Shown in pieces: positions 1,644 through 20,001 of a stretch of 29,346 bases of DNA. Numbering within the stretch: position 1 is the stretch's first letter; the number at the start of each line of letters is the position of its first letter. A program made the position numbers and the translations under genes. Source of the DNA: a virus; the IMG/VR virus record IMGVR_UViG_3300024520_003630, positions 1 to 29,346 of that record, one strand, 5' to 3'. The notes beneath the pieces are model-generated. The model was not told where the DNA came from. It was given only the letters and a program-made list of their open reading frames with translations, and ran no database searches.

Positions 1644-1864
1644 AGACAACGCTCGACCTGATAGGCGCGACGCTCCGAGAGCGGAGGCGCGAATGGATGC
1701 CGGCTAGCGCTCTCGCGAAGCGGGTGAAGGTCTGCCACGGGACCGCCCACAAGTGCGCGAAGCGATGGGTTGAGCTTGGTCAAGCCGAGACCCGGTTCGA
1801 GGACTCGCCCAACCCGCCATGGTGCAACCGTCGCAGGGTCTACCGATGGATAGGCAAGCGATGA
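1640..1864 (+). CDS. Small winged-helix-like DNA-binding protein
   Basis: A 74-residue basic protein (MKTTLDLIGATLRERRREWM at the N-terminus). The order helix (TLRERRREW), PASALAKRVKVCHGTAHKCAKRWVELGQAE, then a basic strand RRRVYRWIGKR resembles a MarR/GntR-like winged helix: an HTH followed by a hairpin. I chose ATG 1640 rather than the in-frame ATG at 1616 because AAGGGGG sits a few bases upstream and because it gives an ATGA overlap with the methyltransferase stop. Its stop in turn overlaps the ATG of the nuclease gene. It is likely co-expressed with the methylase. The fold is inferred from pattern only, and no specific family is recognised. Confidence 0.68.
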   Translation: MKTTLDLIGATLRERRREWMPASALAKRVKVCHGTAHKCAKRWVELGQAETRFEDSPNPPWCNRRRVYRWIGKR

Positions 1865-3429
1865 AACACGTATCCGCCTCGCAGGTTAAAGCGTTCCGCC
1901 GATGCCGCTCTCGCTGGTATCACGAGAAGATCGACGGACACGTCGAACCGCCGTCCGAAGCCATGAAGCGCGGGACGCGGATCCATGCCTTGCTCGAGGC
2001 GTATCTCGTCGACGGGACCCCGCTACCCGATGACGCCGACGGACGCATCGCGCGGCCGGCTTTGACCCGGCTCCCTCCGGCCGGTTCGGTCCCGCGGGAC
2101 CAAGTCGAGAGCCGCTTCGAGACGCCTGCGGAGGTCTACGGGATCCCGTTCGTCGGGATCATTGACCTGCTCGAGCCGGACATCATCACCGATCACAAGA
2201 CGACGTCGGACTTCAAGTATACGAAGACCGAAGAAGAGCTTCGCGCCGACCCACAAGCACAAGCCTACGCCATCGCAACGCAGAAGGACGGAGACGACGT
2301 CGTCCGCTTCCGGCATCTCTATATCCGGACGTCCGGCGCGCCGCAGTCCAGGGAGACGATCGTCGACTTCAGCCGCGACGACCTCGCGCACGCCTTGACC
2401 CGGCTCCGAGCGACCGTCGCGAGCATGGTCGAGACGTCTCAGGTTGACGACGTCGCGGACGTCGGACACAACCTCGAAGCCTGCGGCGATTACGGGGGAT
2501 GTCCCCATCGCGCCCGTTGCGCCTCGCTCGGACGACACACGCTCGGAGTGATCTCTAGCCTATTCTCTAACCGAAAGGACCGACCCATGGATACGAACGA
2601 CCCTCTCGCGGCGATGCTCGCCGCTCGCAACCCGGCAGAAGCCATCAACCCGCCCGACGGGACTCCGGAGATGCAGACGCCGGAACCCGATCCGCAAGGT
2701 GAGCTTGAAGACCTCGAGCCGGAGAAGGTGACCCGCAAGCGTCGCGCGATGCGCCTTCCGGACGTCTTCGACGATGACGGACACGCGGTCCTGGTCTCGC
2801 GTGCATCTAAGCCGGAGCTCATCGTGTTCGCGACGGCTAACAAGATCCTCGTGGAGCCCCCGGAGGGACGCTCGAAGCCGGGGATCCGCGAGTACCGCGC
2901 CGCGGTCGAGGCGTTCGTCGCGTTCGTGGAGCCGGAGGACGCGCCGGAGCAGGTCGCCGAGACCTGGACGGAGCCTGCGCCGGTCATCGAGCCGACCATC
3001 GCGGGGACGGGGACGGGCTACGTCGAGACGCCCGCGCCGACCGCGGCGGATGTGATGGCGAAGCTCGAGGCGGTCGACGAGTTCACGCGCGAGGCTGCTC
3101 GGATCGTCGGCGCGACGCCGAAGCCGAAGACGAACGGCGACCTGTTGACGGTCTACCTCAACTGCTGCCCTCGCGGACCCGTCCGCTACCTCGAGGAGCT
3201 GCTCGCGCCTATCACCCGCGAGGTCGAGAAGGAGTCCGGCGCGCCTCACTACCTCGCGATCCCGTACAACAACGGACCGAAGAGGGTCGCGGGTGTCTTC
3301 GCTCACCAGATCCGGAGCGGTCTCGTCGACGTGACCGGAGCGATCGTCGCTGACCTGCGTCTCCCTGCTAGCGAAGCCGCGGTCGAGGTCCTCCTCCAGT
3401 ATGCCGACGAAGTCGTCCGTCGTTTCTAG
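1861..3429 (+). CDS. PD-(D/E)XK (RecB/Cas4-like) nuclease with long C-terminal extension
   Basis: A 522-residue product. Residues 1-225 are a RecB-family nuclease: VSASQVKAFRRCRSRWYHEK (4-23), GTRIHALLEAYL (38-49, the G-x-x-H-x-x-x-E element), FVGIIDLL with Asp102, DHKT with Asp111 and Lys113 (the D-x-K catalytic pair), and PQAQAYA (131-137, the Q-x-x-x-Y helix). Cys15 with Cys208, Cys214 and Cys220 could hold an iron-sulfur cluster, as in Cas4/AddB. Residues 243-522 are a different, acidic Pro/Glu-rich linker and an alpha/beta domain (DLLTVYLNCCPRGPVRYLEE) that I do not recognise. ATG 1861 overlaps the previous stop (ATGA). The gene opens a replication block (helicase, SSB-like, polymerase), so a role in recombination or end processing is likely. 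The join near residue 240 looks like a former gene boundary. Confidence 0.88.
   Translation: MKHVSASQVKAFRRCRSRWYHEKIDGHVEPPSEAMKRGTRIHALLEAYLVDGTPLPDDADGRIARPALTRLPPAGSVPRDQVESRFETPAEVYGIPFVGIIDLLEPDIITDHKTTSDFKYTKTEEELRADPQAQAYAIATQKDGDDVVRFRHLYIRTSGAPQSRETIVDFSRDDLAHALTRLRATVASMVETSQVDDVADVGHNLEACGDYGGCPHRARCASLGRHTLGVISSLFSNRKDRPMDTNDPLAAMLAARNPAEAINPPDGTPEMQTPEPDPQGELEDLEPEKVTRKRRAMRLPDVFDDDGHAVLVSRASKPELIVFATANKILVEPPEGRSKPGIREYRAAVEAFVAFVEPEDAPEQVAETWTEPAPVIEPTIAGTGTGYVETPAPTAADVMAKLEAVDEFTREAARIVGATPKPKTNGDLLTVYLNCCPRGPVRYLEELLAPITREVEKESGAPHYLAIPYNNGPKRVAGVFAHQIRSGLVDVTGAIVADLRLPASEAAVEVLLQYADEVVRRF
2572..2589 (+). promoter_or_regulatory. Internal ribosome binding site and start inside the nuclease ORF
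   Basis: GAAAGGA lies about 7 bases before an in-frame ATG at 2587, exactly where the nuclease domain ends and the unrelated C-terminal domain begins. Translation from here would give a separate 280-residue protein ending at 3429. The preceding 25 bases carry stop codons in both other frames (TGA at 2549, TAG and TAA further on), as expected for an old intergenic junction. Confidence 0.5.
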
Positions 3430-5234
3430 TGGATCTCGTTAAACTACTAGAACAACGAGCGGATCGCTTCCTTCCCATTGAGCGGTCCGTTCGGGTCGGT
3501 CGGCGTAGGTGCCACAATCAAACAACCTCATCGACGCCGACCGACCATCTTCTCGCATCCGCCAAGCGGAGACAGAGCGACACGGAGCGAGCCGTCGCGG
3601 TTCCCGTAGTTCAAGACGGGTACTTCGACGACGCGCTCGAGGAGATCGAGCGCTTGCATCGTCCGGGCGCGACCATGCGCCTGCGCCCCATTCAATCCCT
3701 CGCTCTCGCAGTCCTCAAGACCTGTCGAGGCTTGCTCGGTTCGATTGGCGTCGGACACGGGAAGACGCTGGTCGCCATTCTCGGAGCGAAGGTCGTCGGC
3801 GCGAAGCGTCCCGTCGTCATGGTCCCGCCATCGCTGCGCGAGACCTTCTTCGTCGAGTTCGACAAGTTCTCGACGTCGTTCGACCTCCCGCGGGTTGAGC
3901 TCCTCGCGTACTCCATGCTGTCCCGGCCGGAAGGAACCGACCTCCTTCGCCGGATGGCTCCGGACTACATCTTCGCCGACGAGGCTCACTCCCTGCGCCA
4001 TCCAGGGAGCGCTAGGACGCGACGCCTCCTCCGCTACCTCGAAGAGAACCCGTCGACGGTCTTCGCGGCTGCGTCGGGGACGCTCACGTCGAGGTCCCTG
4101 CGTGATTACGCGCACCTATCACGGCACGCGCTCGGAGAGGGTTCGCCGCTTCCCCTGCTCGAGTCGCATCTCGACTCCTGGTGTAACGCGATCGACGTTG
4201 ACGGTCGCCCCTCACCTACCGACTGGGCAACCGTCGAGCCGCTGGTCGATGCGTTCGGCGAGGGCCCTCTCGCCTTTATGACCGGAGCCGCTCGCGTCGA
4301 GGCTGTCCGCGAAGCGTTCCTCGCGAGGCTCGAGAGCGCGCCGGGTGTCGTCATTACCGAAGACGAGTCCGCTCCCTGCTCGCTTGTGATTCACACGCTC
4401 CGGACGCCTCGACCTCCCGGCGACATCATCGAGGCTATCGCGGTCGTGAGGTCCGGCGAGAGCCCGAACCGGGAGGAAGTCTACGAGGACGACGTCGCGG
4501 TCTGGCGCGCGGCGCGACAGGTCTCCGCCGGCTTCTTCTATCGGTGGGATTGGCCGGACGGGATTGTCGATGATCAATGGCTCGAAGCGCGGTCTCGCTG
4601 GTCTCGATGGGTCCGGCGTGAGCTCGAGACCGGGTCAGCGGAGGCTTATGACTCGCCCGCCCTCGTCGCGAGGCGCACCCGGGAAGAGATGGACGGGGAT
4701 CCGCGTCTCGCTCGACGCTCGTCTCGTCACGCCGCTCTATGCGAATGGGAGAGGGTATCGGGTCGGCCGGTCCCGCCGACCGTCGCGGTCTGGTTGTCGG
4801 ACTATCTCGTCGACGAGCTCGTCGCCCTGGTCGAGCGCCTTCGCGAGCCTGTCCTCGTATGGTACGAATCCAAGGCTCTCGGAGAGCGTCTCGCCGCGGT
4901 AGGCGGGTGGCGCCTATGCGGACCCGGCAACCCGCCGAAAGGCGAACCGGAGACGTGTGTCGTTAGCATCTCGGCGCACCATCACGGGTTGAACCTTCAA
5001 GGATGGCGGCTCTCGGTCGTCGTCGAGCCTCCGAGCTCCGGTCAGAAATGGGAGCAGATGATCGGGCGCACGCATAGAGCAGGACAGTTAGCCGACGAGG
5101 TCCACGTCTTTACCTTCGTCGGTCCCGAACCTTTCGCGAGCGCGTTCGCGTCCGCGAGAGAACAAGCCGCGTATCAAGCGGAGACAACCGGCGGGAGGAT
5201 GAAGTTGGTCTTCGCTCCCGTCATTCAGGATTAA
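3429..5234 (+). CDS. SF2 (SNF2/DEAH-like) DNA helicase/ATPase
   Basis: Predicted ATP-dependent helicase or translocase. From a GTG at 3429 it is 601 residues: LRPIQSLAL (85-93, Q-like element), Walker A GVGHGKT (107-113), VVMVPPSLRETF (motif Ia region), Walker B FADEAH (182-187), motif III ASGT (215-218), and C-terminal motif VI QMIGRTHRAGQ (543-553), the form typical of SNF2-like proteins. The C-terminal VVVEPPSSGQKWEQ also fits the second RecA lobe. The GTG overlaps the nuclease stop by one base but has no visible ribosome site. Residues 20-55 are encoded by a repeat-rich segment and do not look like folded protein. A TTG at 3654 with GAGGAG upstream, or ATG 3675, are alternative starts. 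It works with the adjacent SSB-like protein and polymerase. Confidence 0.9.
   Translation: MDLVKLLEQRADRFLPIERSVRVGRRRCHNQTTSSTPTDHLLASAKRRQSDTERAVAVPVVQDGYFDDALEEIERLHRPGATMRLRPIQSLALAVLKTCRGLLGSIGVGHGKTLVAILGAKVVGAKRPVVMVPPSLRETFFVEFDKFSTSFDLPRVELLAYSMLSRPEGTDLLRRMAPDYIFADEAHSLRHPGSARTRRLLRYLEENPSTVFAAASGTLTSRSLRDYAHLSRHALGEGSPLPLLESHLDSWCNAIDVDGRPSPTDWATVEPLVDAFGEGPLAFMTGAARVEAVREAFLARLESAPGVVITEDESAPCSLVIHTLRTPRPPGDIIEAIAVVRSGESPNREEVYEDDVAVWRAARQVSAGFFYRWDWPDGIVDDQWLEARSRWSRWVRRELETGSAEAYDSPALVARRTREEMDGDPRLARRSSRHAALCEWERVSGRPVPPTVAVWLSDYLVDELVALVERLREPVLVWYESKALGERLAAVGGWRLCGPGNPPKGEPETCVVSISAHHHGLNLQGWRLSVVVEPPSSGQKWEQMIGRTHRAGQLADEVHVFTFVGPEPFASAFASAREQAAYQAETTGGRMKLVFAPVIQD
3435..3546. 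repeat. Cluster of inverted and direct repeats at the helicase 5' end (possible origin or regulatory element)
   Basis: A perfect 13-bp inverted repeat GGTCGGTCGGCGT (3494-3506) / ACGCCGACCGACC (3534-3546) flanks a 27-base, A-rich loop. Just upstream are a 6-bp inverted repeat CTCGTT (3435-3440) / AACGAG (3454-3459) and two copies of a 10-mer GAGCGGWYCG at 3457-3466 and 3480-3489. A short TCCGC/GCGGA hairpin follows about 10 bases after the second arm. The segment opens the helicase reading frame, where the encoded protein looks unstructured. Confidence 0.6.
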
Positions 5235-5246
5235 GGAAGATGTATC

Positions 5247-5765
5247 ATGTCAGCATTTGCAGGTATTGAGAACGCATCCATCGCGGGCGGAAGCTCGCGG
5301 AACTTCGAGCCGGGGACCTTCCGGCTTCGTCTCGACGGCTTGAAGGTCGTCGACTCCAAGCGCAACCCGGGGACGCGATACGCGGTCGTCGAGTGCTCGG
5401 TTCTCGCTTACGAGCCGGGCGTTCGTCCCCATCTCGACGAGACCCTCCCGCCGACGCCGATGGCGGCGGAGACCTTCAAGTCCGGAGACATCGTCGCCTG
5501 GAAGGTGAACATGGGTCTCGCGAGCGCGCTCGACAACCTCAAGGGGTTTGGGCTCGCGGTCATGCAGTCCGTCGCCATCGAGAACGGGACGGACCCGACC
5601 GGGATCGTCGAGGCGCAGATCACGCCGCCCGTGATGGACACGCTCTTCGCCCCGAACGGGTCGCCTGCTATCGGGCTGACCATCGACGCGACGGCGTTTG
5701 TCATCTTCACCCGGGCGAACAACCCCTTCACGAAGGTGACTTGGTCGCCTGTCGCGGCTAGCTAA
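5247..5765 (+). CDS. Possible single-stranded DNA-binding protein (DUF669/SSB-like)
   Basis: A 172-residue protein with no clear catalytic motif. Residues 20-55 (FEPGTFRLRLDGLKVVDSKR, then NPGTRYAVVECSVL) follow the pattern of phage OB-fold proteins, where an xxGxYxxxVxxxKxxxSRxGNxxxxVEFxVL run forms the first strands. The middle has KSGDIVAWKVNM, another strand-rich stretch. ATG 5247 is preceded by AAGGAAG at about 8 bases. It lies 12 bases after the helicase and its stop shares a base with the polymerase start (TAATG). In many siphophages a small SSB-like or DUF669 protein sits at exactly this place between helicase and polymerase. The role is inferred from position and a loose pattern. Confidence 0.6.
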   Translation: MSAFAGIENASIAGGSSRNFEPGTFRLRLDGLKVVDSKRNPGTRYAVVECSVLAYEPGVRPHLDETLPPTPMAAETFKSGDIVAWKVNMGLASALDNLKGFGLAVMQSVAIENGTDPTGIVEAQITPPVMDTLFAPNGSPAIGLTIDATAFVIFTRANNPFTKVTWSPVAAS

Positions 5766-7750
5766 TGGCGAGCGGCCCGACGCGATTCGTCTTCGACTGC
5801 GAAACATGGCTGATCGCGCCGGGTCGCCTCGCTCCTCGCTTGGTCTCTGTCGCCTATCAGAAGGGAGGCGACCTCGTCCGAGTCCGTCATCGCTTCGACG
5901 ATTGGCGCACACCCGTCCGAGACGCGCTCGAGACCTGCGAGGTCATCGGGCATAACGTCGCTTATGACCTCGCGGTCCTGGTGAACGAAGAGCCGGAGCT
6001 TGAACACGTAGTCTGGAAAGCCTACGAAGAGGGACGCATCTTCGACACGATGATCCGGGCGCAGCTCATCGCGATTGCGCTCGGTCGGTTCAAGTTCGAC
6101 GCGACCATCGGAGACAAGGGATCGCGCCCTCGCTGGTCCCTTGCCGCCCTCGTCGGGAAGTATCTAGGCGAAGAGGTCACAGGGAAGCATGGTCCGGACG
6201 TCTACCGGCTCCGGTTTCACGAGCTCGACGAGGTCCCCGTCGCGGATTGGCCGGACGCCGCTCGCGCTTACGCGATGGCGGACGTCGACTATACCGCTCG
6301 CCTATGGGGGAGGCTCGGAACCTACGCGACCGAAGTCGGTATCCCGCGGATACCGGACGAGGCGAACCAAGTCCGCGCCGCTTGGTCTCTACATCTCGCC
6401 GCGTGTTGGGGGATACGGACGGACGAGCCCGCGGTCGACGCGCTCGAGGCTCGGCTTCGCGAGTCCGTCGCTGCTGTCCACGACGACGCGGTCGCGGCCG
6501 GTCTCATCCGGAGCAACGGGACGAAGAACGTCGGAGCGATTCGCGCCCGGGTCGACCTCGCCTTCGAGGACGGCTCACCGAAGACCGCGAAAGGCGCGAC
6601 CAGGACGGACACGGCGACGCTCGCAGGGACGGGCGACGACCTGCTCGTCCGGCTCTCGGAGGTCGCAGCGGATGAGAAGGAGCTCGCCGCCTTCGTCCCG
6701 ACGCTCCGAGCGGGTGTCGACCTCCCTATCAACCCGCGATGGAACACGCTTGTAGAGTCCGGCCGCGTGTCCTGCTCGAAGCCGAACCTCACGCAGCAAC
6801 CACGCCGATCCGGCGTCCGCGAGTGCTACGTCCCGCGCCCTGGATACTGGTTCGCGACGGCGGACTACGCCTTCGCGGAGCTTTGCACGCTCGCGCAGAC
6901 CTGCGTCGACTGGTTCGGCGAGTCCGCCCTCGCGGACACGATCAACGCAGGTCGAGACCCGCACAAGGCGACCGGCGCGAATCTGCTCGGTCTCGATTAT
7001 GACACCTTCCTCGAGCGATTCCTCGCGGGAGACCCCGACGCGAAGCAGGCTCGACAGCTCGCGAAGGCGCTTAACTTCGGCTATCCGGGAGGACTCGGCG
7101 CGTCGACGTTCGTCGAATATGCGTCCGCGACCTACGGACTCGAGATCGACGAGGACCAAGCTCGCGAGCTCAAGCGGACCTTCGTCGCGACCTATCCGGA
7201 GATGTCGCGCTACTGGCGCAAGATAACCGACAGCCTCTCGGACGGTGGCGGGTCGTTCACGGCTGCGCTGGTTCGGTCCGGTCGCATCCGCGGGGGTCTC
7301 GGCTTTCCGAACGGGTGTAACTACTTCTTCCAGGGTCCCGTCGCGGACGGCGCGAAGCGTGCGTTTTACCTACTGACCAAGGAGAGCCGCCTCGAGCCGG
7401 ACTCGCCGGTCTACGGGTCGAAGCCTCTCATCCTTATGCACGACGAGATCATCTCCGAGGTCCCGGTCGACCTCGCCGCAGAAGCCGCGCAGCGGGTCGC
7501 GGACGTCATGGTCGAGACCTTGTCCGAGGTCTGTCCCGACGTGAAGATAAGCGCGGAGCCTGCGCTAATGCGCCGATGGTACAAAGGCGCCGCGCCGACC
7601 TACGTCGACGGGCGCCTCGTTCCGTGGGAGCCTTCGCGCCCGGGTGAATTGACAAGCGACGGGGCCCTCCGCTTCTGCTCGGTCTGCGGTAGGGTTCCCG
7701 TCGCGAAGAATCACGCCGAGACTCGTTGCTTCGCTTGCGCTAGCGGTTAG
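5765..7750 (+). CDS. Family A DNA polymerase with 3'-5' exonuclease and C-terminal zinc ribbon
   Basis: A 661-residue replicative polymerase. Exonuclease motifs: Exo I FDCET (Asp11, Glu13), Exo II GHNVAYD (Asn64, Asp68), Exo III YAMAD (Tyr169, Asp173), all intact. Polymerase motifs: A ADYAFAELC (Asp367, Glu372), B RQLAKALNFGY (Arg430, Lys434, Phe438), C MHDE (His559-Asp560-Glu561). Motif A has Cys374 where most family members have Arg. The position equivalent to E. coli Phe762 is Phe438; published surveys of viral family A polymerases associate Phe here with virulent phages. No 5'-3' exonuclease domain is present. An extra tail ends in CSVCGR...RCFAC (C-x2-C-x13-C-x2-C, Cys638-658), a likely zinc ribbon. 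The start overlaps the upstream stop, and the stop overlaps the stop of the convergent HTH gene. Confidence 0.96.
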   Translation: MASGPTRFVFDCETWLIAPGRLAPRLVSVAYQKGGDLVRVRHRFDDWRTPVRDALETCEVIGHNVAYDLAVLVNEEPELEHVVWKAYEEGRIFDTMIRAQLIAIALGRFKFDATIGDKGSRPRWSLAALVGKYLGEEVTGKHGPDVYRLRFHELDEVPVADWPDAARAYAMADVDYTARLWGRLGTYATEVGIPRIPDEANQVRAAWSLHLAACWGIRTDEPAVDALEARLRESVAAVHDDAVAAGLIRSNGTKNVGAIRARVDLAFEDGSPKTAKGATRTDTATLAGTGDDLLVRLSEVAADEKELAAFVPTLRAGVDLPINPRWNTLVESGRVSCSKPNLTQQPRRSGVRECYVPRPGYWFATADYAFAELCTLAQTCVDWFGESALADTINAGRDPHKATGANLLGLDYDTFLERFLAGDPDAKQARQLAKALNFGYPGGLGASTFVEYASATYGLEIDEDQARELKRTFVATYPEMSRYWRKITDSLSDGGGSFTAALVRSGRIRGGLGFPNGCNYFFQGPVADGAKRAFYLLTKESRLEPDSPVYGSKPLILMHDEIISEVPVDLAAEAAQRVADVMVETLSEVCPDVKISAEPALMRRWYKGAAPTYVDGRLVPWEPSRPGELTSDGALRFCSVCGRVPVAKNHAETRCFACASG

Positions 7751-8073
7751 TCGTCACAATGACAGACAAGCGGCTGCTTGCCGCAGTCACGACAGACCTT
7801 CCAAGGCGCGCAGGGATCCCCGCTCTCGACGTATCGCGACTCCGTAACCCTCTCATAAGGGGCCATCAGGCGGAGGAACGTCTTCGTCGCTTGCTTCATC
7901 TTCCGCAGAATCGCCAGCTCAACGACGAACGCTCGCGCGTCGAGGTCGGGGAAGGCTTCGAGGATGCGCGCGAGGTCGACGACGTTCGGAGAGCGGTCGC
8001 CGCGGAGCCAATCCCCCGCCTTCCTAGCGGTCACATCGGGGAGCGCGGCTGCTATCTGTCTCGGCTTCAACAT
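7747..8073 (-). CDS. HTH protein with C-terminal cysteine (zinc-knuckle-like) tail
   Basis: A 108-residue protein. Residues 1-45 (MLKPRQIAAALPDVTARKAG, DWLRGDRSPNVVDLARILEA) have the XRE pattern: a short helix, then recognition helix TARKAGDWLRGDRSP, then a packing helix ending in AFPDLD. A middle helix (ARAFVVELAILRKMKQATKT) could dimerise. The end CAPWKVCRDCGKQPLVCHC carries five cysteines spaced like a small zinc knuckle. I chose ATG 8073 because GGGGTGAT lies about 7 bases upstream and because the HTH starts there; ATGs at 8121 and 8133 have poorly spaced sites. The stop overlaps the polymerase stop tail to tail. It is probably a phage transcription regulator; its target is unknown. Confidence 0.78.
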   Translation of the reverse strand: MLKPRQIAAALPDVTARKAGDWLRGDRSPNVVDLARILEAFPDLDARAFVVELAILRKMKQATKTFLRLMAPYERVTESRYVESGDPCAPWKVCRDCGKQPLVCHCDD

Positions 8074-8228
8074 GAGATCACCCCGTATAGTCGGATCAAT
8101 TGCCAGAGTGTCGACTCCCATGTCGCGAGCCATCTCTTCCGGTCGTTGCTGGAAGGTTGTCCCTTCCAATACGCGACGCGCTCCCGCGCTATGCGTTGCG
8201 CCTTCTTCCCTCTCGCGAGCGTCAACAC
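8067..8228 (-). CDS. Small basic Trp-rich protein (53 residues), overlapped at both ends
   Basis: A short frame starting at GTG 8228 that fills the gap between two neighbours. The start overlaps the stop of the upstream gene (GTGTTGA) and its TGA lies in ATGTTGA at the next gene's start, the coupling pattern used throughout this phage. GAGG lies about 8 bases before the GTG. The product (LARGKKAQRIARERVAYWKG, then QPSSNDRKRWLATWESTLWQ) is basic with four Trp and predicted helical; no family is recognised. A competing reading in the frame of the HTH gene is also open here, so expression is likely but not certain. Confidence 0.5.
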   Translation of the reverse strand: MLTLARGKKAQRIARERVAYWKGQPSSNDRKRWLATWESTLWQLIRLYGVISC

Positions 8229-8467
8229 GGGTCGACCTCATCAGGTCGAAAGGTGACCGAGACCGCGTCGATGTCGAACCAAGGGACGGCGAAGTCGTCG
8301 TCGCTGTCATCGATCGCGTACCATTCCGGCTTGACCTGAAGTCCGGAGCCGTGTCCCTCGACAGGTCGGAGGGTAAGCGCGTCGATGTCGATCCCCGCGG
8401 TCTTCGCCTTCGCCTTCGCGATGGCGACGAGGTCTTCCTTCGTGATGCTGATCTTGATTTCGGTCAT
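8222..8467 (-). CDS. Hypothetical small acidic protein
   Basis: An 81-residue protein from ATG 8467, with AAGGAG 8 bases upstream (strong site). The N-terminus TEIKISITKEDLVAIAKAKA forms a strand and an amphipathic helix; the C-terminal half is acidic (AIDDSDDDFAVPWFDIDAVS). I do not recognise a family. It belongs to a leftward set of small genes between the replication and lysis blocks, a usual place for early host-takeover or regulatory proteins; that role is only positional. Confidence 0.78.
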   Translation of the reverse strand: MTEIKISITKEDLVAIAKAKAKTAGIDIDALTLRPVEGHGSGLQVKPEWYAIDDSDDDFAVPWFDIDAVSVTFRPDEVDPC

Positions 8468-16766: not shown

Positions 16767-19240
16767 TAGAACGCGGTCGACTCCATCCCGGTTCCAGCAA
16801 GGGAGTTGACCTGATCGCTGATAGCGCGGCCCAATTCTTGCGGCAAACCTAGGAGCATTCCGGGCCCGAAATTTATCTGTATTCTCTGCGCGACCTGCTC
16901 TTCTTGCTGGACCGCGGGAGTGACGAGCGACCCACCTCCGGCTGTCTCCTCTTCGGGTCGAGCGGACGTCGGCTGAGCAGCCGCGACTCCCGCCATCGCG
17001 AAGAACATCGTCGACGCGACGAGATGCCCTATTGATTCCGCGGGGTTGACCCACGCAGTAGCTACCGCCATCGCGGCTTCGAATGCCGCCATTACCAGTG
17101 CTTTATCCCTGGCGGATTCCACGAAAGCGGCCGTGGCTGGCCCGACAACGGAGAGCCCGGCCGCCATTCCTCCCGCTACCTTTTGTCCACTTGTCAGCGA
17201 AGCATCGCCGAGCGCCGCGAATTTCTCGGTCGCCTTCGGGACGGTGACACTCATCGAGTTAAAGCCCGCGATGATGTTCTTGTATCTCGCCGGCCGGTTG
17301 AGTCTCGCGAGGTCTGCGTCGAGCTGGCCCAGGATAGCAGCGCCGCCTGAGAATGCGCCGCCTATCCCTTCGCCTAGCGTCTGCGCGAAGGCTGCTCTCT
17401 CCGCTTGTGCGACTTCCGCTTTGGCTTTCTGCGCCTCGAGCCTTGCGAGGTCTATAGATAGACCCGCCTCCTCCACGCTTAGGGAGGACTCCCGGATCTC
17501 TCGCTCTCGCTGTAGGAGTTCGAGGTCGATCCGCTGCGTGTCCGTCTTGGCTTCCGCTAGTCCGAGCGCGTTCTTCGCGAGTGTGATCGCGTCCGCTTCG
17601 GCTTGCGCCTTCTCCTCGCTCTTCTTTGTAAGAGCGGCCTCGACCGCGTCGATCTCCTTCTTCAAGACGAGTCGAGCCTTCTGCTTTTGCACCGCCTCGA
17701 GATCAGTGGCGGTCGCCTTCTTCACGCCCTTGGCTATCGCCGCGACCTTCGCTGTTTCCGCTTTCGCGATGGCGTGACGATTCTTGATCCTTGCCTTGTC
17801 GAGCGCATCGACAGACTTCAAGATCTCAATCTCACGCTTCGCTGCTGCGATCCCTTTTTCCGTCGACGCTTGCGCCGCCTCGCGTGCCTTCTTCGCTGCG
17901 CGTATTCGGGCACTGCGTCGCGCCTTGTCCGCTTCGTCTATTTTCGCTTTCGATGCGGCCGCTTTGTCTTCCGCCGCCATCTGTAGCCGGGTCTGTTCGG
18001 CAGTCACCATCCCCGTCGCGCCGCCTGTAGGCGCCCCTTCTCCGAATCTTTGCACCGGGGACGGTGCTTCTGCCGCGTCTCTCGCGCGCTCGACCGCTTT
18101 GTATGCGGATTCCAGCTCGAACAGGCTCCGGATCTGCTCGTAGTTCTTCGCGGTGATGGTGTCGATCTGACTGCTGTACGCTTGCCACGCCGCGATCTTC
18201 TCTTCCGGTCTCAGAGACGCGAGACGCTTTCTCAATTCGTCGAGCGCCTTCGCCGCGCGCTTCGGTCCTTCCCCTTTGCGGAGAACGACGCCAGTCAGCG
18301 TGAAGTCGATCCCGTCAACCTTGTCTTTCAGACCGACCCAGTCGTCCGCCATCTCCTCCGTTGTCTTGCCTACAATCCCCCGCATGAATTCCATCGCTGT
18401 CAGGAATTCACCGGATGCGGCCGATTGCATGTCAGAGATGAAGTCGTCGAAGCTCGTCGACGCGCGCTGCATGTCGGTTTGAAACTGCTCGAGAGGGACG
18501 TCGTCGAACTGTTCGCCGAGCGCCTCGAGCGCAGCCGGTAAAGCAATCTCAAGACGTCGGGTCATCTCATCGACGGACCCGGCCGCGATGTTGTTCTCCT
18601 TCGCGTATTTCTTGGTCAGCCCAGTGATCTTGTCGAGGTTCACGCCAATATCAATGAGACCGGTCGTCCTCCCCTTTAGACTGGACTCGATGACCCTCGC
18701 GACGTCGATGACCTCGCGCCCCTGGTCGTGCGCCGCCTTCGTCGCTAGCTCGAGGAGGCGCGTCGTCTGTTTGATCGGAACGCCTAGCCGCTTGAATCGG
18801 TTCGCGATGATCTGGAGATCGGTCTCTGTGACGAGACCGCCCGTCGCTTTCTTCAGCTCGCCTAGAGCGACCGTCGCGTTCGGTATGGCTTGCGCAAACC
18901 GGATCGCGATGTTCGCAGCCTTCTCTCCCTCGACGATAAAGTCCTTCAAAGCCCGGAGAGCCAGCGCGCCCATAAACACGCCGACCGCAGCCTTCGCGTT
19001 CATGAACTTCTTTCGGAGATTACTCACGCCATCGGCGGTACGGATGAGGGTCGCCCGATACCTACTCTGTCCGCGGATGGACTTCGCGACCGCAGCGCCT
19101 AACTTCGTTTGTGCGACGCCTGCCTTCTTGAGCTCGTCGGAGGTCTGCTTGATAGCCGCGTTCGATTGCTTCAAGACGGCGCGGATATTCTCCTGCGCTC
19201 TCGCGATGACTTCTAGTTTTACCGCGCCCGCGACTGCCAT
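16766..19240 (-). CDS. Tail tape measure protein
   Basis: An 824-residue protein that sets tail length and is ejected with DNA. The N-terminus (MAVAGAVKLEVIARAQENIR, then AIKQTSDELKKAGVAQTKLG) is the Ala/Lys/Gln-rich helix typical of tape measures. Residues 85-110 have a hydrophobic stretch (AAVGVFMGALALRALKDFIV). The middle (about 420-600) is Ala/Lys/Glu-rich coiled coil (KAREAAQASTEKGIAAAKRE). Two hydrophobic helices occur near 700-770. At about 1.5 Angstrom per residue a tail near 120 nm is expected. ATG 19240 has AGGGG upstream. It follows the G/T-type chaperone genes, as in most siphophages. Confidence 0.94.
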   Translation of the reverse strand: MAVAGAVKLEVIARAQENIRAVLKQSNAAIKQTSDELKKAGVAQTKLGAAVAKSIRGQSRYRATLIRTADGVSNLRKKFMNAKAAVGVFMGALALRALKDFIVEGEKAANIAIRFAQAIPNATVALGELKKATGGLVTETDLQIIANRFKRLGVPIKQTTRLLELATKAAHDQGREVIDVARVIESSLKGRTTGLIDIGVNLDKITGLTKKYAKENNIAAGSVDEMTRRLEIALPAALEALGEQFDDVPLEQFQTDMQRASTSFDDFISDMQSAASGEFLTAMEFMRGIVGKTTEEMADDWVGLKDKVDGIDFTLTGVVLRKGEGPKRAAKALDELRKRLASLRPEEKIAAWQAYSSQIDTITAKNYEQIRSLFELESAYKAVERARDAAEAPSPVQRFGEGAPTGGATGMVTAEQTRLQMAAEDKAAASKAKIDEADKARRSARIRAAKKAREAAQASTEKGIAAAKREIEILKSVDALDKARIKNRHAIAKAETAKVAAIAKGVKKATATDLEAVQKQKARLVLKKEIDAVEAALTKKSEEKAQAEADAITLAKNALGLAEAKTDTQRIDLELLQREREIRESSLSVEEAGLSIDLARLEAQKAKAEVAQAERAAFAQTLGEGIGGAFSGGAAILGQLDADLARLNRPARYKNIIAGFNSMSVTVPKATEKFAALGDASLTSGQKVAGGMAAGLSVVGPATAAFVESARDKALVMAAFEAAMAVATAWVNPAESIGHLVASTMFFAMAGVAAAQPTSARPEEETAGGGSLVTPAVQQEEQVAQRIQINFGPGMLLGLPQELGRAISDQVNSLAGTGMESTAF

Positions 19241-19243
19241 CGT

Positions 19244-19609
19244 CTACCCCTGCGACGTCGAGTGTGATGTTCGCCGCGAACGAGCCTGTACGAGAAGAGA
19301 CCAGACGGACGGAACCCATGCCGCATAATCATCCGGCCACCCCGCAAGGGGTGACAGCTTCGCATGATGCTCGAGCGTCAAGACGTACCGGAGACGCTTG
19401 TCGTCGTTCATCGCAGCGACCGGACAGCGGTCCCAGGGTTGCCCTAGATAGAAGCCGGCGCGATGCTCGCATCGACCCTCACACCCGCTCGCGTCTCCGC
19501 TTGCGCATTTCAACCCGTGTGCATTCGCGAGAACGTCGAGCCATGCCGCGACTCTTACGCGCTCGCTCAGGTAGGGTCGGCGCCCATGCCTGACGCGTTC
19601 AGGACCCAC
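19244..19609 (-). CDS. T-like tail assembly chaperone ORF in the -1 frame of the upstream gene
   Basis: The frame overlaps the end of the G-like gene and lies in its -1 frame, the arrangement of the lambda G/GT pair. With a GTG at 19609 it is 121 residues; coding character is clear from about residue 14 (LSERVRVAAWLDVLANAHGL) to the end. It has four Cys (35, 43, 47, 62) in CASGDASGCEGRCEHR and DRCPVAAM, and WPDDYAAWVPSVWSLL near the end. The GTG lacks a ribosome site, which favours expression by frameshifting as a G-T fusion. I find no canonical X-XXY-YYZ slippery heptamer in the overlap. It would guide assembly of tube subunits on the tape measure and be absent from virions. Confidence 0.72.
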   Translation of the reverse strand: MGPERVRHGRRPYLSERVRVAAWLDVLANAHGLKCASGDASGCEGRCEHRAGFYLGQPWDRCPVAAMNDDKRLRYVLTLEHHAKLSPLAGWPDDYAAWVPSVWSLLVQARSRRTSHSTSQG

Positions 19610-19983
19610 GAGCCGAGAGAGATCAGCGGACCGAGCTTGATCGAATGAAGAACGACGTCGACGTCCTCGCAGGTCTCGCCGTTCTCTTCCGCCTTGACGA
19701 AGGCGAGCGCGATGATCCGCTCCATCGCCTCCGCTAGTTGAAGGGTCGAGGCTTCTCCGAGGTCCTCGAAGTCGATCTCCCGAAAGGCGGACGAGCATCG
19801 CATCACTTCGCGATCGTTCAGGGCGCGGACGGTGACGACCGTCGCTCCCTTCTTCTTCGCGCCTTTCGCCGCGCCTTTCGCTTTGTCGACCTCGACCCAT
19901 TCGTCGCTATCCTTGCCGATGGTCGGATCGCTATGACAAACGAGCTCCGCCCTTTCCGTTATCTTGATCAGTCCTAACGCCAT
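19567..19983 (-). CDS. G-like tail assembly chaperone
   Basis: A 138-residue protein between the tail tube and tape measure genes, the fixed place of the G chaperone in siphophages. It starts MALGLIKITERAELVCHSDP, includes a basic Ala/Lys linker (VDKAKGAAKGAKKKGATVVT), then helices (DLGEASTLQLAEAMERIIAL) and ends ASGMGADPT. ATG 19983 has GGGG about 6 bases upstream. The last 43 bases overlap the downstream -1 frame, so the longer fusion product is possible. The family is not recognisable by sequence alone; the call rests on position, size and frame. Confidence 0.78.
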   Translation of the reverse strand: MALGLIKITERAELVCHSDPTIGKDSDEWVEVDKAKGAAKGAKKKGATVVTVRALNDREVMRCSSAFREIDFEDLGEASTLQLAEAMERIIALAFVKAEENGETCEDVDVVLHSIKLGPLISLGSWVLNASGMGADPT

Positions 19984-20001
19984 GAATCCCCATCCGTCGG
20001 C

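Follow-up and report, generated by a model that had tools for sequence, protein, structure and literature searches.

We found that two adjoining predicted hairpins within the first 40 codons of a phage DNA helicase gene are kept as base-paired shapes in three diverged phages, while both their sequence and the residues they encode vary. The gene lies on IMG/VR virus record IMGVR_UViG_3300024520_003630, and by "the window" we mean the whole stretch of DNA that was analyzed (29,346 bases, i.e., 29.3 kb). Its plus strand carries a replication operon composed of a C5 methylase, a small ORF, a PD-(D/E)XK exonuclease, the DNA helicase, an ssb-like gene, and a family A DNA polymerase. The TAG stop codon of the exonuclease gene and the GTG start codon of the helicase gene overlap as TAGTG (UAGUG in the mRNA) at positions 3427-3431, and the predicted fold of the helicase start is a row of three hairpins (P1-P2-P3). 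The genes and hairpins concerned are as follows:

1864-3429, + strand: exonuclease gene, PD-(D/E)XK (Pfam PDDEXK_1, phrog_69)
3429-5234, + strand: phage DNA helicase gene, GTG start without a Shine-Dalgarno (SD) sequence (phrog_62, DNA helicase)
5247-5765, + strand: ssb-like gene, named from context (no family match)
5765-7750, + strand: polA, family A DNA polymerase gene, two genes downstream of the helicase gene (TAATG overlap with the ssb-like gene)
3424-3432/3444-3452, + strand: P1, predicted 9-bp hairpin holding the stop and start codons (pair probability 0.92)
3456-3469/3480-3493, + strand: P2, predicted 14-bp hairpin, codons 10-22 (pair probability 0.97; covariation with L004 and L005)
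3494-3506/3534-3546, + strand: P3, predicted 13-bp hairpin, codons 22-40 (pair probability 0.99)
3558-3570, + strand: small predicted 5-bp hairpin (no counterpart shown in L004 or L005)
5767-5833, + strand: polA-start hairpin directly after the TAATG start, a probable second example in the operon

Folding and covariation of the helicase start

The arms of P3 form the perfect 13-bp inverted repeat with a 27-base loop that an earlier note on this DNA had described, and the other repeats it listed were likewise found, namely, a 6-bp inverted repeat (CTCGTT/AACGAG, 3434-3439/3453-3458) and a small hairpin (TCCGC/GCGGA, 3558-3570). Both of its GAGCGGWYCG repeats are also present (GAGCGGATCG at 3457-3466 and GAGCGGTCCG at 3480-3489), but what had been taken for direct repeats are the two arms of the imperfect hairpin P2, and P3 begins at the base right after P2 ends. 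Across the 29,346 bases, no other perfect inverted repeat reaches 13 bp with a loop of 3-60, and when the window was dinucleotide-shuffled, 4 of 40 shuffles contained any such repeat. The P2 loop (CTTCCTTCCC, 3466-3476) is anti-SD-like and complements 7 bases of the ssb-like gene's ribosome site (AAGGAAG, 5238-5244), and the P2 loop of L005 is likewise pyrimidine-rich.

Among 584 sliding 150-base segments, 3401-3550 displayed the lowest dinucleotide-controlled folding z-score (z = -6.9). When synonymous codons were shuffled with the protein kept, helicase codons 1-40 ranked first and polA codons 1-40 third among 408 coding segments; gene starts of the window were on average unstructured (mean z about 0), and no significant structure was seen in helicase codons 41-63 of the window. 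For codons 9-40, the observed energy was reached by 0, 0, and 1 of 400 synonymous shuffles in the window, L004, and L005, respectively.

The latter two are the only close relatives (63% and 61% identical helicases, respectively) among the 66 helicase loci recovered by protein searches of IMG/VR. Alignment scans with polA, the exonuclease, the ssb-like gene, and the helicase found no close relative besides the same two contigs, and GTDB yielded no close relative for polA and, for the helicase, distant matches only, mostly from Myxococcus. The element is, accordingly, described from three sequences, in all of which P2 and P3 sit at the same codons. Specifically, counted from the first base of the start codon, P2 spans offsets 27-64, 27-61, and 27-64, and P3 spans offsets 65-117, 62-117, and 65-114 in the window, L004, and L005, respectively. 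In codon register, 71 of the 75 P2 and P3 base-pair cells are held across the three phages, with double-sided changes at 13 of 25 pair positions; the P2 register is identical between the window and L005, with six double changes. Within each gene, the arm geometries of P2 and P3 rank at or near the top of all sites. Plain MAFFT alignments, made without fitting to the structure and giving counts independent of the codon-register ones, showed 82% pairing for P2 (versus 31-49% when slid) and 94% for P3 (versus 27-51%). Covariation in the 13-bp stem, which the earlier note had proposed to look for, is present between the window and both L004 and L005. P1 has a similar counterpart in L004 and a different hairpin over the start in L005, and support for a start hairpin is weak for P1 alone (p = 0.09, 0.007, and 0.017 in the window, L004, and L005).

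A chance or composition effect could draw on the high G+C content of the genome and on the other hairpins that occur in these genomes; same-codon covariation in three phages and z-scores controlled for dinucleotides and codons make it the least probable of the explanations weighed here. Family-wide conservation of the structure was considered and dropped: elsewhere in the helicase family the excess of 5′ structure is only mild (p = 0.003 with dinucleotide shuffles and p = 0.02 with synonymous shuffles; p = 0.056 with synonymous shuffles once the three close members are left out), and a covariance model scan of 673 kb yielded no further copy. Some distant family helicases have strong, unrelated N-terminal coding hairpins of their own (L064, 3824-3943; L022, 1025-1144; L040, 3872-3991; L047, 3857-3976).

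Coding status of the helicase N-terminus

The earlier note had suspected that this segment is noncoding, citing a GTG start without a ribosome site and an unstructured-looking protein. The first point was borne out: the duplex energy with the anti-SD is +1.1, -0.9, and +1.1 in the window, L004, and L005, respectively, and we attribute the missing site to the overlap of the GTG with the upstream stop codon. The N-terminus also proved poorly conserved as protein over residues about 9-46, where third-position bias is lacking. Between the window and L004, differences at codon positions 1/2/3 are even in codons 9-46 (0.35/0.39/0.42), versus 0.30/0.22/0.60 across the remainder of the gene, which is a normal coding pattern, and amino-acid identity is 24-48% in codons 9-46 versus 59-66% in the gene body. 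This is the opposite of the outcome that the note had named as contradicting its view, i.e., residues 1-75 kept as protein and the stem not kept. Taken together, even codon-position change, low identity, and kept pairing suggest that codons 9-46 are constrained more in their fold than in their protein, as it appears from the three sequences compared.

A noncoding segment (a small RNA or an attenuator), with the helicase starting further downstream, would accommodate the absence of third-position bias in codons 9-46. Against it, aligning the N-terminus with relatives revealed that the start within a stop-start overlap is common to both close relatives (TAGTG in the window and L004, TAATG in L005), that all three helicases open with MD..LL.(K/Q)R and run to the family motif SDTERAV at residues 50-56, and that N-terminal length differences among relatives are whole codons and the frame is kept. 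In the window, no alternative in-frame ATG, GTG, or TTG occurs until codon 76, and since the motif lies upstream of that codon, the segment must be translated. There is also no promoter-like site and no match to an Rfam family at threshold in the window, and no U-tract follows P3 (the next bases are ATCTTCTC), which disfavors an attenuator. The noncoding reading is thus largely refuted, and we regard it as highly improbable. One terminator-like site (3405-3422) lies upstream of P3 and is at chance level. The best sub-threshold Rfam likeness, that of P2-P3 to EcpR1 (RF02500; 23.8 bits, E = 0.14), falls far under the gathering score of 60 and is regarded as chance. A mobile palindromic insertion of ~105 bases, hinted at by the shorter N-terminus of L002, was rejected: the helicases of L003, L006, and the close relatives are all extended at the N-terminus.

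The helicase start offers a clear case in a double-stranded DNA phage of a replication-gene stretch apparently constrained as folded nucleic acid over protein, located at an SD-less stop-start junction. It also serves as a warning that an RNA fold can lie behind a variable N-terminus in a phage protein.

RNA or DNA as the constrained molecule

We favor RNA over DNA as the molecule under constraint, judging from strand comparisons of the sequences. Against synonymous shuffles, the mRNA strand folds with z = -4.1 in the window and -3.3 in L005, versus -1.4 for the complement in each case; L004 folds equally well on both strands. Family helicases are slightly more structured on the sense strand in their 5′ regions (p about 0.02-0.04), an excess not shared by gene bodies. 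Non-Watson-Crick cells in P2 and P3 comprise 7 G-U versus 4 A-C, a wobble count that is not decisive as evidence for RNA versus DNA.

A DNA-level element, in which single-stranded or cruciform DNA hairpins serve to start replication or to bind a protein, would agree with palindromes at a replication gene, with the behavior of L004, and with the complementary strand being able to pair too in most base-pair cells. However, stem sequences that are free to vary with pairing kept speak against a double-stranded DNA binding site, arm sequences that a sequence-specific or nick site would need are not kept, folding is much stronger on the mRNA strand in the window and L005, and the family 5′ excess likewise points to the sense strand. 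The candidate origin of the earlier note gained no positive support: GC skew, which it had suggested checking, does not switch at 3.4 kb, the element is flanked on both sides by genes of the same orientation, and 3300-3700 contains no family of iteron-like direct repeats. We therefore consider a DNA-level element improbable. Elsewhere in the window, the tape-measure region (17001-20000) displays strong AT skew together with GC skew; skews of such strength are common in long late genes.

Proposed translational coupling and competing functions

We tentatively propose, as a model that falls somewhat short of an even chance, that a cis-acting array of mRNA hairpins in the first 40 helicase codons controls helicase translation, most likely through coupling to the exonuclease gene by termination-reinitiation. 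In this model, the structure would keep ribosomes from initiating independently on the helicase gene; ribosomes completing exonuclease synthesis would unfold P1 and begin again at the overlapping GTG/AUG, with this restart being limited or positioned by the stacked P2-P3 immediately downstream. Helicase output would thereby be tied to, and held below, exonuclease output, and the N-terminal linker of the helicase would be free to take on any sequence that the RNA shape imposes. All three phages have the stop-start overlap expected for coupling and lack a strong independent ribosome site. A counterpoint to direct blocking is the location of P2 and P3 at +27 to +117 inside the gene, as 27 bases in is beyond where a hairpin directly blocks initiation. 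If coupled translation is indeed tuned here, the junction would represent a natural, evolution-tested design for protein ratios within an operon. A more general rule, that an SD-less overlap goes with a downstream hairpin, appeared as a trend in a first set of junctions and then failed, there being no link between a weak SD and downstream structure in 92 independent overlap junctions of other phages; the coupling claim is therefore limited to this lineage.

Precedents exist for parts of this arrangement, the nearest being termination-reinitiation at overlapping stop and start codons within bacterial operons. In E. coli, a URAUG within a stem of at least 6 bp gives coupled reinitiation, there with a ribosome-binding site (RBS), in the synthetic synTCE system (PMC11602170). 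The helicase junction resembles it in having a stop-start overlap of the URAUG type in a predicted stem of at least 6 bp, with upstream translation proposed to open the start, whereas it differs in lacking an RBS and in having two covarying in-gene hairpins. The UAAUG of the SART1 retrotransposon requires structure downstream of the overlapping stop-restart site (PMC5972666), and a similarly placed secondary structure is seen here; SART1, however, relies on a eukaryotic ribosome and is unrelated in sequence, and the function of the phage element is putative.

The main rival to coupling is a translational operator, in which a phage protein (helicase, polymerase, ssb-like protein, or another repressor) would bind P2-P3 and shut off helicase translation once abundant. 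By analogy with phage T4, where gp43 and gp32 repress their own messages via hairpin or pseudoknot operators (PMC3014915), such a role would suit an element within a replication operon whose polA start is structured too, and the P2 loop is alike in the window and L005 (CUUCCC.UU). That likeness, however, falls where the protein has a conserved Leu-Pro; in P3, conservation of the loop between the window and L004 does not exceed that of the arms, and the L005 loop differs. The T4 gene 43 and gene 32 operators likewise place structured RNA at the start region of phage replication genes, but they lie upstream of the start codon, at the ribosome site, and bind a known protein, whereas P2 and P3 lie inside the gene. 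We consider an operator unlikely, though it would be the first alternative to turn to.

An element acting on mRNA stability, processing, or elongation, such as an RNase III substrate or an early-translation pause, could make use of the abutting P2-P3, which might stack into a near-continuous helix of about 27 bp, and would be compatible with a position within the coding region. Cutting of the RNase III type at this site would, however, destroy the helicase message, and we judge this class of element to be quite improbable. It is also doubtful, if a shade less so, that codons 9-40 work as an RNA device and thereby set the protein sequence, with the helicase and polA starts using embedded hairpins as dosage control and the helicase or another replication protein sensing the structure of its own message; a stronger version, in which ribosomes skip part of the folded segment, is less likely.

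The polA-start hairpin has a counterpart at the corresponding position in L004 (2496-2555) and L005 (6324-6383), and the TAATG stop-start overlap of polA is found in the window and L005. Covariation at this hairpin is slight because the protein is conserved there. The ssb-like gene of the window, which has its own AAGGA, shows no excess structure at its start, and this pattern of structured helicase and polA starts versus an AAGGA start without excess structure, together with the SD-less helicase start, fits coupled termination-reinitiation.

Further structure was noted in the 3′ part of polA. L005 carries an 18-bp perfect hairpin at 8086-8138 (AAGGCGCTCTCCGCGGTA / TACCGCGGAGAGCGCCTT) that was not seen there in the window or L004. 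In the window, the end of polA (7501-7750) shows above-average structure (z = -3.2 at 7501-7650), and its 3′ end meets a convergent gene on the minus strand (7747-8310) with zero gap.
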